Source: Occallatibacter sp. (GTDB lineage: Bacteria > Acidobacteriota > Terriglobia > Terriglobales > Acidobacteriaceae). Taken from it: 60,145 bases of DNA. A model generated the notes under the pieces. The model was not told the DNA's origin. It was given only the letters and a program-made list of their open reading frames with translations, and did not search any database. Shown one piece after another: positions 33,529 through 58,081 of the stretch (the stretch's first letter is position 1; every line of letters begins with the position of its first letter). Where the stretch lies: assembly GCA_017883405.1 (NCBI GenBank), contig JADGNO010000135.1, positions 1 through 60,145 on the forward strand, given 5' to 3'. The translations under genes and the position numbers were made by a program.

Positions 33529-33541
33529 ACCAGCCACAAAA

Positions 33542-33583
33542 CGTGCAATCCCAGGTCCGGATCTTCGGAACTGGGATTGCACG
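33542..33583. repeat. Palindromic repeat family I, copy A (variant flanks), possible terminator
   Basis: A 42-base inverted repeat with about 17 paired positions and one mismatch, loop GATCTT. The core CCCAGGTCCG is shared with the other family I copies, but the outer arms (CGTGCAAT/ATTGCACG) differ. It lies 13 bases after the beta-galactosidase stop and could end its transcript, though no T run follows. Confidence 0.75.
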
Positions 33584-33633
33584 AGCATCCATATCCGCCC
33601 CCGGCAGACCGCAGCTCTCCATGCCCGTACGAA

Positions 33634-35173: not shown

Positions 35174-35214
35174 TAAAGGGTGCGAGCGTTTGCCGAAGGG
35201 TAAGGGCTTTAGCT
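35174..35214. repeat. Decayed half-units of repeat family II
   Basis: Two imperfect copies of the GAAGGGTACGGGCTTTAG half-unit stand in tandem just before a full family II element, as if successive partial duplications had eroded. Confidence 0.5.
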
Positions 35215-35285
35215 GAAGGGTACGGGCTTTAGCCCGTACATGACTCCCGCAAAATGAGAAGGACTTTAGCCCCCGAGGGAATGCG
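35215..35285. repeat. Bipartite palindromic repeat family II, copy 1
   Basis: The left hairpin GTACGGGCTTTAGCCCGTAC is separated by about 28 variable bases from a right element, ACTTTAGCCCCCGAGGGAAT. The same order and spacing recur at 51328 and 58012. It lies between the convergent aminotransferase and NCS1 genes. Confidence 0.75.
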
Positions 35286-36751: not shown

Positions 36752-36761
36752 GGAGCCTCCT

Positions 36762-36786
36762 GAAGGGTGCGGGCTTCAGCCCGTAC
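36762..36786. repeat. Repeat family II, lone left hairpin
   Basis: GTGCGGGCTTCAGCCCGTAC stands without the right half in the 53-base gap inside the pyrimidine operon. A hairpin here could adjust the ratio of transporter to dihydropyrimidinase message. Confidence 0.65.
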
Positions 36787-36804
36787 TTCCAAACTTCCGC
36801 CGAC

Positions 36805-38199: not shown

Positions 38200-38243
38200 A
38201 GTTTTAACTCGCTCCCACAAGGGGTCAGATCAGGATTGAAGCT

Positions 38244-38283
38244 GGGTGTCCCAGGTCCGGACTTTCGGACCTGGAATACCACG
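38244..38283. repeat. Palindromic repeat family I, copy B
   Basis: GGGTG-TCCCAGGTCCG, loop GACTTT, CGGACCTGG-AATACCAC. Nine paired bases in the stem. It lies between preA and hydA within the operon. Confidence 0.8.
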
Positions 38284-38296
38284 AACCTCAACGGGG

Positions 38297-48041: not shown

Positions 48042-48115
48042 TGGCTGGGCGACTAGGATTCGAACCTAGACAAGTGCCTCCAAAGGGCACTGTCCTACCA
48101 TTAGACGATCGCCCA
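48042..48115 (-). tRNA. tRNA-Gln (UUG)
   Basis: On the minus strand a full cloverleaf can be drawn: acceptor TGGGCGA/TCGCCCA, D arm GTCT-AATGGTA-GGAC, anticodon arm GTGCC-CTTTGGA-GGCAC with anticodon TTG, and T arm CTAGG-TTCGAAT-CCTAG. Discriminator G is followed by an encoded CCA. It lies between ispE and prs on the same strand. Confidence 0.95.
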
Positions 48116-48160: not shown

Positions 48161-49243
48161 TCAATGCGAAAGCATGTCACGCCAGTAGGCTGCGCGCGAC
48201 AGAGTGCGAGTCAGGTAACTCTTCACTCCTGCCGGCCGCAAACGTTCGCAAGCCGCTTCCGCATCTCCGCGGGTCAGGTACAACCCGAAGAGCGCCGAAC
48301 CGGACCCCGACAGCATGGCAACAAGGGACGAGGCTGCCTCCGGAACGTCGGCACCCGCAAGTAAACGCTTGATCTCTGCAAGGGAAGGATGCTGGGGAAA
48401 AACAACTCGTTCAAAGTCGTTCTGGATCCAGCTACTGATCCCGGTGCGGACAAGCGCGGACTCTTGAGGTCCCGCAAGGTCCTCGCGGCCATTGTCGTTA
48501 CTGGCGAGGACACCGGAGGAGCCTGCTCCCTGCCCTCCCTCGGGGATTACTCCCGCAAAGGCGCTGGCATAGGCGCGGCTCAACTCATTCAGTTTACCGG
48601 CACTTGCCTCCGGGGTCAAACCTTCCTTTGCGCACAACGCATCCCAGTCGCGGAAAGCCTGCGGCGTTGAAACCCCCACCTCCGGCGTGGCAATCACGCA
48701 CCACGTAGGTTCAACATCCGGCAGGGGATACACCTCCTGCCCCCGATCCAGCCCCAGCACCGTGCCGCCAATCAAGAAAAGCGGCACGTCCGACCCCACC
48801 CGCGCCGCAATCTCCAACCGCCCAGCAAGCCAAGGATCTTGGGTGCCCCAGGTCCCGCTCTTGGGACCTGGGATACCACGAACCCCGAGTTCCACATCCA
48901 ACCCCACCAAAGCCGCCACCGCATTGGCCGACCCGGCTCCCAAACCACCCTGAACCGGCAGCCGCTTTTCAATATGAATCTCGACCTCGGCCGTCAACCC
49001 CAGCATCTCGAGCGCCAGCTCAACCATCTTCCACGCCGTGTTCCGCCCATCGGTCGGCACGCGCGCGTCATTCGAGGTCAGTCGCAAAGCCGTCACCGCA
49101 GCCGGCCGTGCCGTCACCGTGACCACGTCGTGCAACTCGATCGTCTGGTAAACCGTGGCCAGCGCATGAAAACCATCAGCTCGCGGCGCACCAATGCCGA
49201 GACCCAGGTTGATCTTTGCGTGCGAACGAACGCTTGTGGGCAT
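48161..49243 (-). CDS. ispE: 4-diphosphocytidyl-2-C-methyl-D-erythritol kinase with in-frame repeat insertion
   Basis: 360 residues; the family usually has about 285-310. GHMP-kinase motifs are present: SHAKINLGLGIGAPRADGFH, LPVQGGLGAGSANAVAALVG, VGSDVPLFLIGG and AMLSGSGSALFGLY. Two stretches make it long. The first, VRGIPGPKSGTWGTQDPW at about residue 122-139, is encoded by a copy of palindromic repeat family I (48841-48880). The second is a Gly/Ser-rich segment near residues 235-270. Catalytic Lys and Asp are retained, so the enzyme is probably active in the MEP isoprenoid pathway. Confidence 0.93.
   Translation of the reverse strand: MPTSVRSHAKINLGLGIGAPRADGFHALATVYQTIELHDVVTVTARPAAVTALRLTSNDARVPTDGRNTAWKMVELALEMLGLTAEVEIHIEKRLPVQGGLGAGSANAVAALVGLDVELGVRGIPGPKSGTWGTQDPWLAGRLEIAARVGSDVPLFLIGGTVLGLDRGQEVYPLPDVEPTWCVIATPEVGVSTPQAFRDWDALCAKEGLTPEASAGKLNELSRAYASAFAGVIPEGGQGAGSSGVLASNDNGREDLAGPQESALVRTGISSWIQNDFERVVFPQHPSLAEIKRLLAGADVPEAASSLVAMLSGSGSALFGLYLTRGDAEAACERLRPAGVKSYLTRTLSRAAYWRDMLSH
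48841..48880. repeat. Palindromic repeat family I, copy C, inside ispE
   Basis: GGGTGCC-CCAGGTCCC, loop GCTCTT, GGGACCTGG-GATACCACG. Ten paired bases, 40 bases in all. The copy is in frame and without a stop in the ispE reading direction; it falls between two conserved segments of the protein. Confidence 0.85.
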
Positions 49244-49337: not shown

Positions 49338-49535
49338 ATGCACTTCCTGCTCTTTGCCCTCGCACTCTACTTCGCGCCAGCCATCATCGCCGCCGCGCGC
49401 AACACGCATAACGCCACCGCAATCCTCCTGCTCAACGTCTTCCTTGGCTGGACGATGATCGGATGGTTCGTCGCGTTGCTGATGGCCATCTGCTCCGCCC
49501 CCTGCTGGGCCTACTACTACCGTCGCGGATGCTGA
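49338..49535 (+). CDS. Small membrane protein of the superinfection immunity family
   Basis: 65 residues from ATG 49338, with AGGAG seven bases upstream; an upstream frame to 49194 is antisense to ispE. Two membrane helices flank a short loop with ARNTHNATAILLLNVFLGWT, then MIGWFVALLMAICS. The R-x-H-x-x-x-x-I-x-x-x-N-x-x-x-G-W-T pattern is that of the superinfection-immunity family (PF14373), known from phage T4 Imm and common in bacterial chromosomes. It overlaps the start of the next gene. No phage genes are near, so an immunity role is unproven. Confidence 0.8.
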   Translation: MHFLLFALALYFAPAIIAAARNTHNATAILLLNVFLGWTMIGWFVALLMAICSAPCWAYYYRRGC

Positions 49536-51292
49536 AGGCCCCGGCGCGCTGGGGGCTGCGTGATTGGCTTGCCGCCATCGGCATCTTTGCCGCCACGGCA
49601 GCCGTGGTCCTCTGGCAGAACGCACACGTTGCCGTACTTTGGGACCTGAGCTACGTGCTCGACTCCGCCGCGCGCATCGCCCAGGGACAGCTTCCCTATC
49701 GCGATTTCCCATTGGCTCACGCGCCGCTCACATTCCTCATCCAGGCAGCCATCATCCGGCTCACCGGCCGCGTCTTTTTCCATCACGTGCTGTACGCAGC
49801 CATTGTGGGCGGCCTCGGCACTGCTCTCACATGGCGCATCGCGCTGCATTCGCTGTTAAGCCGCGTCAACAATTCTTGGCTCGTCTCGCTCATTCTTGCC
49901 GCGCCGCTCACGGTACTCGGCATCTACTGCATTCTGCCGCTCCCGTCCTACGACTGCGATTGCGCCTTCTCAATCCTCGTAGCCATCTATCTGCTGCAGC
50001 GCCTCAGCCAAACTTCGTCATGGCTCTATGGAATCATCACGGGCGCGGCCCTTTGCCTGCCGGTCTTTTTCAAGCAGAACATTGGCCTCCCATTTCTGGC
50101 CGCCACCTGCGGCATCCTCGCCGTCGCGCTTGCCGCCGAATTGTCCGGGCTTCTCAAGCCGCCAGCACCCGATTCGCCCGCCCGCGCATTGTCGACGAAG
50201 CCACTATTCGCCGTGCTTACCGGCATCGCGGCCACTCTTTCGGCAGCTCTGCTCGTACTGCATTTCACCGTCGGCCTCGGCAATTATTATCATTGGACCA
50301 TCCAGTTCGCAGCCCAGCGTCGGCTGCCCGGTCCGCAGCAAATGCTCAGTGTCTACAGTGATCCGCAATTGCTCTGGAAGCTGCCGTGCATCATCGCCGC
50401 GCTCGCGCTTCTTCGCCGCGCCAAAGCACAATGGGCCAAGCTCGTCGCGCTCTTTCTCTTCGCCGCACCGTTCGTATACACACTCTGCACGCTGTTTATC
50501 TACAACGATGCAGACGAGCGCGGCGACAGCCTGCTCGCCCTGTGGCCAATGCTGTTGATTCTCGCCGCTGCATTGGCTCTGTGGAACCTGCGCAGTCTCC
50601 GCATCGAGCGGCGCCTGCATTTCCATATCGCGCCGCTCCTGCCGATTCTCATCCTGATCGCCATCCACGGCACGCTCATGTCGCAGCAACTCTGGGGATC
50701 GACCTACGCAATCTGGCCGCTGCTCATCCTGCTCATCGCCGACATAACAGCGTTCCTGGCGGAATTCAAATCACCAGCAATAGACTTCGGCAAGATCACG
50801 CCAGCCATTGCGGCAGGCATTTCAGTCACTCTACTCATCTGCGGCGCCCTCTACACCACCAGCGAAGAGCGGCTGTCCTACGCGCAGCTTCCCGCCGACC
50901 CAGTGCAGCACTCAACATTCCCGCAGCTCAAAGGCCTGTCCACTCCAGGCCCGTTTCTGCAGGACTTCGACGAACTGCTTCGCTACGCCAACGCCAACAT
51001 CCCACAAACCGACGGCATCACTCTCATCCCCGGCGAAGATCCGTTCTACTTCGCCACCGGCCGCACGCCGCAGTTTCCGGTGCTGCTCTTCGATCGCGCC
51101 GCCGACCCGCTCTCGCCCGCACAAGTCGCGGAAGCAGCAAGCCAACACAACATCCGCTGGCTCATCGTAAAACGCAATCTGCAACTGACCGCCGACCCCA
51201 CTCCGCAACGCGAAGCAACAATCACTCAACTGCAAGAGAGATTCAAACTAGCAGCAAGCCTCCACGCCTACGACATCTATAAAATCCGCTAG
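49529..51292 (+). CDS. GT39-like (ArnT/PMT-type) membrane glycosyltransferase
   Basis: 587 residues from ATG 49529, which overlaps the previous gene by seven bases; a longer frame from 49463 is unlikely. About 11 hydrophobic segments are present. After the first helix the loop carries LWDLSYVLDSAARIAQGQLP then YRDFPLAHAPLTFLIQA, where PMT_2 enzymes carry catalytic acids. The last ~100 residues are soluble. It would move a sugar from a polyprenyl phosphate to an unknown acceptor. Coupling to a tiny membrane protein is odd and may indicate a complex. Confidence 0.8.
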   Translation: MLKAPARWGLRDWLAAIGIFAATAAVVLWQNAHVAVLWDLSYVLDSAARIAQGQLPYRDFPLAHAPLTFLIQAAIIRLTGRVFFHHVLYAAIVGGLGTALTWRIALHSLLSRVNNSWLVSLILAAPLTVLGIYCILPLPSYDCDCAFSILVAIYLLQRLSQTSSWLYGIITGAALCLPVFFKQNIGLPFLAATCGILAVALAAELSGLLKPPAPDSPARALSTKPLFAVLTGIAATLSAALLVLHFTVGLGNYYHWTIQFAAQRRLPGPQQMLSVYSDPQLLWKLPCIIAALALLRRAKAQWAKLVALFLFAAPFVYTLCTLFIYNDADERGDSLLALWPMLLILAAALALWNLRSLRIERRLHFHIAPLLPILILIAIHGTLMSQQLWGSTYAIWPLLILLIADITAFLAEFKSPAIDFGKITPAIAAGISVTLLICGALYTTSEERLSYAQLPADPVQHSTFPQLKGLSTPGPFLQDFDELLRYANANIPQTDGITLIPGEDPFYFATGRTPQFPVLLFDRAADPLSPAQVAEAASQHNIRWLIVKRNLQLTADPTPQREATITQLQERFKLAASLHAYDIYKIR

Positions 51293-51327
51293 CGCCCCGC
51301 TGAAAACTCGATGAGAGCTTTCTTGTT

Positions 51328-51395
51328 GAAGGGTACGGGCTTCAGCCCGTACATGGAGCCATGCAAAGTAATAGGGGCTTTAGCCCCCGAGGGGC
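51328..51395. repeat. Bipartite palindromic repeat family II, copy 2
   Basis: Left hairpin GTACGGGCTTCAGCCCGTAC, variable spacer of about 24 bases, right hairpin GGGGCTTTAGCCCCCGAGGG. The element lies after the GT39-like gene. Confidence 0.8.
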
Positions 51396-51447: not shown

Positions 51448-51457
51448 CCGTATCGCC

Positions 51458-51495
51458 GGGTGCCCCATGTCCCGATTTTGGGACATGGGATAACA
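51458..51495. repeat. Palindromic repeat family I, copy D
   Basis: GGGTGCC-CCATGTCCC, loop GATTTT, GGGACATGG-GATAACA. The third stem position differs from the other copies on both arms (compensated A/T). Confidence 0.8.
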
Positions 51496-51517
51496 AGCCC
51501 CCCAGATCACCACAATC

Positions 51518-57053: not shown

Positions 57054-57104
57054 GGGCGCCCCATCCATCTCGTAGTTTCATCACGAGATGGGTGGGATAT
57101 CACA
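57054..57104. repeat. Palindromic repeat family I, long-stem copy F
   Basis: GGGCGCC-CCATCCATCTCGT, loop, ACGAGATGGGTGG-GATATCAC. Same flanks as family I but a different 14-base stem with one G-T wobble. Confidence 0.75.
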
Positions 57105-57110
57105 AACGCC

Positions 57111-57150
57111 GGGTGCCCCAGGTCCGGATTTTCGGACCTGGGATACCACA
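57111..57150. repeat. Palindromic repeat family I, copy E
   Basis: GGGTGCC-CCAGGTCCG, loop GATTTT, CGGACCTGG-GATACCAC. This copy is the closest to the family consensus, with a perfect ten-base stem. It stands seven bases after copy F. Confidence 0.85.
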
Positions 57151-57333
57151 GACCCAAATACAACGAGCTCCAGCTAACTTGCGATATCGCCGCGCAGCGG
57201 CGTGCTGACTCGCTAATTTGCTGGCGATTCGAACAACACCCCCGCCATGATTTATCCTTGCATCTCCACAACTTGCCCTGAACCGGCAAACCCTCGTATC
57301 ATCCGTCGAGAGAAAAGCCAAGAGAGTGCAACT

Positions 57334-57930: not shown

Positions 57931-58011
57931 GAAGCGAAGGGTTCAGAATTAAGTGAAGAATTCAGTCTGAAGTGAAGGGTACGGGCTTTAGTGAAGAGCA
58001 CGGGCTGAAAT
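57931..58011. repeat. Decayed tandem half-units of repeat family II
   Basis: Four to five imperfect GAAGGGTACGGGCTTTAG-like units stand in tandem, increasingly well kept toward the full element at 58012. The same arrangement occurs at 35174. Confidence 0.55.
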
Positions 58012-58081
58012 GAAGGGTACGGGCTTTAGCCCGTACATCAGCCTTGTCAAAATCAACTGGGCTTTAGCCCCCGAGGGAATG
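58012..58081. repeat. Bipartite palindromic repeat family II, copy 3
   Basis: Left hairpin GTACGGGCTTTAGCCCGTAC, about 25 variable bases, then GGGCTTTAGCCCCCGAGGGA. It lies between pyrR and pyrB. Confidence 0.8.

Follow-up and report, generated by a model that had tools for sequence, protein, structure and literature searches.

REP-like palindromic elements in the reading frame of an IspE loop in Acidobacteriota

The ispE gene of Occallatibacter sp. carries, in its reading frame, a copy of a dispersed palindromic repeat family, and this insertion is one case among repeated colonisations of the same protein loops. The repeats form a hairpin, accompany RAYT transposase genes and are enriched, in related genes, in the same loop of IspE, where their distribution reflects several events. 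We consider it quite probable that they are REP-like elements of Acidobacteriota, presumably moved in trans by a RAYT, one of which was inserted in frame in the IspE loop between two helices.

The element in the reading frame of ispE

The window analysed here is the whole 60,145-nucleotide stretch of contig JADGNO010000135.1 (assembly GCA_017883405.1). Its ispE gene (48161–49243, minus strand) encodes a 4-(cytidine 5'-diphospho)-2-C-methyl-D-erythritol kinase of 360 aa, which scores 144.3 bits against TIGR00154, above the curated cut-off of 138.7, and is the single match in the genome (assembly 78% complete). The host presumably needs this gene: the account of cultivated Acidobacteria in PMC5462960 gives (almost) all MEP pathway genes, ispE included, as present in those examined, which supports such a need without proving it. 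A search of plasmids for IspE yielded 51 records, every one below 60% identity. Directly past the end of ispE lies a tRNA-Gln gene (anticodon ttg; 48042–48115, minus strand).

The element (48842–48877, plus strand) is a 36-nt unit, GGTGCCCCAGGTCCCGCTCTTGGGACCTGGGATACC, with the outer ends GGTGCCCC...TGGGATACC; it is supported by the exact ends, the model R1 and the comparison of loops. On the ispE coding strand it begins at a codon boundary, contains no stop and constitutes codons 123–134, which specify the peptide GIPGPKSGTWGT. This bears out the sequence-only reading, which had placed a palindrome inside ispE without a stop or a change of frame. The core of the unit (48847–48872, plus strand) is the palindrome CCCAGGTCCCGCTCTTGGGACCTGGG, a hairpin with perfect arms of 10 bp and a loop of 6 nt. 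Folded as DNA, the 36-nt unit reaches −12.7 kcal/mol (z −4.48), and none of 200 shuffled sequences folded as well. R1, a covariance model built from 21 family I copies from which the ispE copy had been left out, recognised it at 48837–48882 (a 46-position match; 63.8 bits, E 3.6e-16).

The element falls in the loop that the motifs GAGSANAVAA and GSDVP bound on either side. The window's IspE has a loop of 38 aa; for the solved IspE 8ckh the count is 24 aa, made on the sequence alignment on which the link between the two proteins rests. The difference of 14 aa agrees with the earlier estimate of an insert of about 14 residues, and the excess over a loop of 26 aa, the shortest in the window's clade, is 12 aa, the size of the unit. 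In an AlphaFold2 model of the window's IspE (27 sequences, mean pLDDT 79.5, pTM 0.80), a coil (residues 120–136) is predicted between helices 103–119 and 137–149, with a mean pLDDT of 56 for residues 121–130 and values below 50 for residues 129–131. The segment had been expected to lie in a surface loop; the model gives the coil between helices, and from it the insert would be placed at the protein surface. The added peptide is presumably translated, and most likely it is neutral or carries a slight cost. IspE has a second variable stretch, milder than this one, at residues 231–273, where the pLDDT is below 50; the SSGV segment in it appears repeatedly in the family alignment and has no aligned counterpart in the three solved proteins shown.

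The repeat family and its transposase

In the 3.8-Mb genome the family pattern, with up to two mismatches, occurs at 23 distinct places, against none for its reversed control; together with the R1 score of the ispE copy, these places sustain the earlier proposal that repeat-family DNA adds an in-frame segment to IspE. A 26-nt consensus of the family, with up to three mismatches allowed, matched three times in the window and never in 100 shuffles; the ispE copy, four mismatches away, is outside those three. When both exact ends were required and the interior left free, 14 genome places were obtained (control, 0), six of family I and eight of family II. The latter has the same ends as family I and a longer and different stem, and elements of the two families are 36–47 nt long.

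Other copies in the window are all on the plus strand. A family I copy at 57107–57152 (R1, 68.1 bits), whose longest spanning ORF matched nothing in Pfam, is preceded at a distance of 5 bases by a family II copy at 57054–57101 (R2, 66.6 bits). Another family I copy follows the end of the neighbouring membrane-protein gene (51454–51499; 64.7 bits, no spanning ORF), a third lies at 38240–38285 (61.5 bits, ORFs across it all below 80 aa), and a more diverged one at 33540–33585 (51.7 bits, ORFs across it of at most 60 aa). Copies in this genome are mostly extragenic. ORFs were read at 32 of 33 places, the C338 copy having received no locus, and among these 32 ispE is the only Pfam-recognised gene with a copy; nine of the ten other spanning ORFs of at least 120 aa were run against Pfam, and none matched.

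The family I stem is maintained through compensatory changes: across the 21 family I copies, ispE not included, 24 cells were changed on both sides, against 9.4 ± 1.8 after shuffling (0 of 500 as high). The family II stem has double changes at 6 of 13 pairs (14 copies). An additional outer stem, GGTG/TACC, was judged weak: in 14 of the 21 copies, one of the four base pairs is not formed. The conserved foot in the element alignments A1 and A3 is GGGTGC, the opposite end being variable. Family I was present in 58 of 59 genomes of the genus and in 38 of the 150 genomes of a wider family sample, a sample that includes five from the genus.

Two Y1_Tnp genes occur in the genome, and both exceed the NF047646 (REP-associated tyrosine transposase) cut-off of 80, with 98 and 116.5 bits. 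Three copies surround the RAYT gene that scores 98 bits (locus L244), two on the plus strand upstream and one on the minus strand downstream; at E 0.01, no family I or II copy adjoins the second REP_Tyr_transpos gene (L243, contig 329 of the same genome, G000). RAYT genes of the L244 type were matched in 54 of 59 genus genomes. Among the 30 best-matching loci, one per genome, an element lies within 300 bp in 29 and an inverted pair in 20, and L270 alone has no copy. These loci hold 79 copies in 92 kb, versus 23 in the 439 kb flanking ispE. The five genus genomes without a RAYT match include G159, which has 68 family I matches (both strands counted; the assemblies are incomplete).

Judged from sequence, the arrangement of elements around RAYT is the layout of a REPtron, but with the foot GGGTGC, not GTAG. 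RAYT is the likely mobilising enzyme of these elements, and it is probably the enzyme of locus L244 that transposes them: it would recognise the hairpin of the element as single-stranded DNA and then paste it elsewhere.

A second palindromic repeat, TGAAGGGTACGGGCTTTAGCCCGTACATG, is found in the window at 35214–35242, 36761–36789, 51327–51355, 57973–58001 and 58011–58039, and in three places it is followed by a block with CTTTAGCCCCCGAGGG (35250, 51364 and 58048).

The IspE loop among relatives

IspE was matched in 55 of 59 genus genomes and in 143 of 150 family genomes. One of 160 sampled loci, L095, was unreadable, its halves being read in separate frames on either side of N letters in the loop; the remaining 159 represent 107 distinct genes, 17 of which, from other genera, stood outside the model search. 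Both models (R1 and R2) were applied at E up to 0.01 to 90 distinct ispE loci. Only genes with the two flanking motifs in a single open frame were retained, and 'in frame' therefore holds for all 90 partly by selection. The loop contains 20 copies in 10.9 kb, the rest of ispE 0 in 86.2 kb and the flanks 23 in 439 kb. At least one loop copy is held by 18 of the 90 distinct genes; 14 of these carriers belong to the window's genus, the other four being L109, L112, L129 (of which L131 is a duplicate) and L138. Both stem types and both orientations are represented among the loop copies of relatives.

Loop length is 24–28 aa in nine far outgroup genes and 27–49 aa (median 29) in ten near ones, and it extends from 26 to 96 aa (median 39) in the clade of 71 genes to which the window's ispE belongs, most of them from the window's genus (L168, from G002, is of another genus). 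Over these 71 genes the standard deviation of the loop is 15.5 aa, versus at most 2.0 aa in other stretches of IspE, and the loop sequence varies from species to species. Even so, 53 of the 71 genes have no recognised element, yet their median loop is 38 aa; the elements thus explain only part of the growth of the loop. In five ispE loops (L073, L074, L086, L088 and L089), runs of units resembling GGGATCAG or GGGAACAG, with DQGSGI-type peptides, are a further source of loop sequence.

Other repeats occupy the site in some species. The pattern CCGCTCAGGATGACAG occurs 7, 4 and 12 times in G159, G197 and G183, respectively, and GTCAGCAAGTCAGC 10 times in G166, the ispE copies included in each case; the reversed controls gave 0. 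Neither pattern occurs in the window's genome, and exact GTCAGCAAGTCAGC was likewise missing from G199 and G181, despite their similar-looking loops. In L096 and L118, a family I element is interrupted by another palindrome, present as a tandem pair, and the frame is preserved; the nested copies exceed the E limit of 0.01 (0.094 in L118 and 0.024 in L096) and were not counted.

A tree was computed from the 90 IspE proteins with the loop removed; on it, the distribution of elements requires 14 changes of presence and 16 changes of type (12–16 and 14–18, respectively, over 300 of 1000 bootstrap trees). The 18 carriers need about 14 gains or losses, which these counts do not tell apart; the quick tree has 87 inner branches, of which 32 are weak. 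A single ancient insertion, inherited and diverged, would fit the shared reading frame by common descent, and all 18 carriers do fall inside the 71-gene clade. We nevertheless regard it as very unlikely, since the carriers as one clade were rejected (p-AU 4.4e-7), both stem types and both orientations occur, and unrelated repeats occupy the site in some species. Distant IspE proteins were also inspected for the same segment encoded by unrelated DNA; their loops proved shorter and different, and an ancestral loop finds no support in these shorter outgroup loops or in the AU test. The sequence-only reading had suggested that relatives without the insertion would date the event. Outgroup loops are indeed shorter, but the nearest gene found (88% identical without the loop) has a different insert and gives no date, and no clean empty site matching the ispE insertion was found among the relatives compared.

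That the inserts are products of assembly or binning is extremely improbable: all 14 of the 18 carriers that have a named record are MAGs, but different in-frame inserts are seen in independent genomes, and G158, possibly a cultured strain, has copies in uvrC and in an Fe-S protein.

In the reading that we prefer, insertion by RAYT, a pliable loop would tolerate the elements, which would therefore gather there, nesting, decaying and being replaced, while insertions elsewhere in ispE or out of frame would be lost because the gene is needed. The elements may survive more easily inside a gene because few of their reading frames contain stops: 20 of the 21 model copies of the window's genome were counted (L020 left out), and five of the six frames are free of stops in all 20 of them, and all six in 11, versus 16% of dinucleotide shuffles. 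One codon phase (GxPG..TWxT or FPPF..GWGT) nevertheless accounts for 17 of the 20 ispE loop copies, the exceptions being L145, L109 and one of the two copies in L138. Plain tolerance of the loop does not predict this bias, nor does avoidance of stops alone explain it, since own-genome copies are open in most frames.

Copies in other genes and comparison with known elements

The element family is not confined to ispE, and the idea of ispE as its sole hot spot was dropped once copies had been found in the neighbour gene and in uvrC. The neighbour, divergent from ispE (49463–51292, plus strand), encodes a membrane-protein-like product with a weak PMT_2 match (E 0.0018; 18.9 bits, below the cut-off of 26.1), and no element was found in the window's copy of it. 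In relatives, six in-frame family II copies occur in this gene in 5 of the 90 loci (L117, L143, L144 twice, L158 and L108), and a seventh match, to the family I model in L142, overlaps the gene near the end of the locus. Four of the six stand before a WxRIAGF/WxRIAAF-like segment of the PMT_2-like protein, in Arg-rich frames.

Family I copies were sampled from G153, G154 and G158, 20 in each genome, and at least five of these 60 fall within Pfam-domain proteins, with domains on both sides or across the copy: an Fe-S/CCG protein, UvrC, a class I tRNA synthetase, a GntP permease and a RecG-like helicase. This is a lower bound, as 12 ORFs passed the composition filter and 10 went to Pfam (neither L330 nor the antisense ORF of L318); 33 of the 60 copies have no spanning ORF of at least 110 aa. 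UvrC was matched in 59 of 59 genomes. In the 30 best-matching uvrC loci (L335–L364), one per genome, a choice in which genes split by larger inserts are mostly absent, 16 copies occur in 11 genes (62.4 kb), and 4 in the 74.2 kb of flanks; without L335, the gene through which uvrC was found, 14 copies remain in 10 of 29. The 16 copies all have the same orientation and 15 of them the same frame, the match in L355 being partial. They apparently occupy two recurrent sites, with a double insertion in L357 and a triple one in L356.

These regularities could reflect a preference for the loop DNA as a real target, a resident hairpin attracting RAYT or recombination so that elements are swapped at the same place and codon phase. 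Such insertion or replacement would suit the single phase of 17 of 20 ispE copies across both orientations, the common orientation and frame in uvrC, and the tandem and nested copies (L356 and L357 in uvrC, L096 in ispE). On the other hand, species differ in how far the element lies from the conserved ELG codons, the neighbour gene uses other frames, and insertion followed by selection on frame or peptide would give the same picture; we think site-preferred insertion or replacement rather unlikely. Retention of the segments for a changed activity, stability or partner of IspE could also account for the prevailing frame in ispE and uvrC and for the Arg-rich frame of four of six neighbour-gene copies. 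It appears quite unlikely, given that related species differ in the sequence and length of the loop (26–96 aa) and that the low AlphaFold2 confidence suggests disorder. A broader view, in which RAYT–REP activity is a continuing insertion of peptides directed at a small number of loops in core proteins such as IspE and UvrC, with hairpins exchanged in register and loops turning over while the enzymes stay functional, is one that we put forward tentatively and hold to be doubtful.

Under the preferred reading, of REP-like elements inserted in frame, part of the picture is already known. REPs within proteins have been described, and Rickettsia repeats in proteins earlier still. PMC3733652 describes REPs inside ORFs of several species, many of them in repair genes, different REPs at about the same recB site in two Xanthomonas species, in-frame Rickettsia elements, and acidobacterial transposases with inverted repeats. 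RAYT classes and their canonical GT[AG]G feet are set out in PMC6006769, and the REP table of PMC12306157 includes three Acidobacteriota genomes. What is new is the GGGTGC-ended acidobacterial family and the repeated colonisation of the same loops; among the titles and abstracts listed by searches of open PMC papers, none dealt with repeats in IspE or with this element family.

Like the REP/RAYT REPtrons described in PMC3733652 and PMC6006769, the present elements combine a short hairpin, a conserved foot, many mostly intergenic copies and a flanking REP_Tyr_transpos gene. They differ from the REPtrons of those accounts in their foot, GGGTGC instead of GTAG (or GT[AG]G) or CGTC, and in their acidobacterial host, and also in that elements of both stem types occupy a single loop, across 18 of the 90 distinct genes. 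With the acidobacterial TIRYT genes of PMC3733652 they share the phylum and the transposase superfamily, and one Koribacter TIR there is likewise a repeated family; the motif named in that text, GGGGWSAS, is unlike GGGTGCCCC here.

The sequence-only reading had likened the insertion to Rickettsia elements (RPE). The likeness holds for palindromic repeats in frame inside conserved proteins, here ispE, uvrC and at least 5 of 60 sampled copies, and PMC2229807 describes a gmk product with an RPE insert that stays active with changed substrate affinity. It does not extend to length or host: RPE measure 105–146 bp and belong to Rickettsia (PMC2229807), unlike the 36–47 nt elements of Acidobacteriota, which have a visible transposase partner. 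A canonical Rickettsia element was rejected on these grounds, and because copies flank RAYT genes, the REP element is the closer known kind.

In one clade, a single loop of a metabolic enzyme has thus undergone about a dozen or more separate steps of gain, loss or replacement. This is a natural experiment on the lengthening of working proteins by selfish DNA, with the likely mobilising enzyme at hand, and it opens direct tests of the neutrality of the insertions, of the choice of site and frame by transposase versus selection, and of gain in protein length. For annotators, it is a warning that long variable loops in such proteins can be repeat DNA.

Two further copies were seen near the N termini of predicted proteins. 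At L208, family I, apparently in two copies, lies near the N terminus of an Rce1-like protease ORF, and at L198 a family I copy lies near that of a GH67 ORF, each possibly before the true start.
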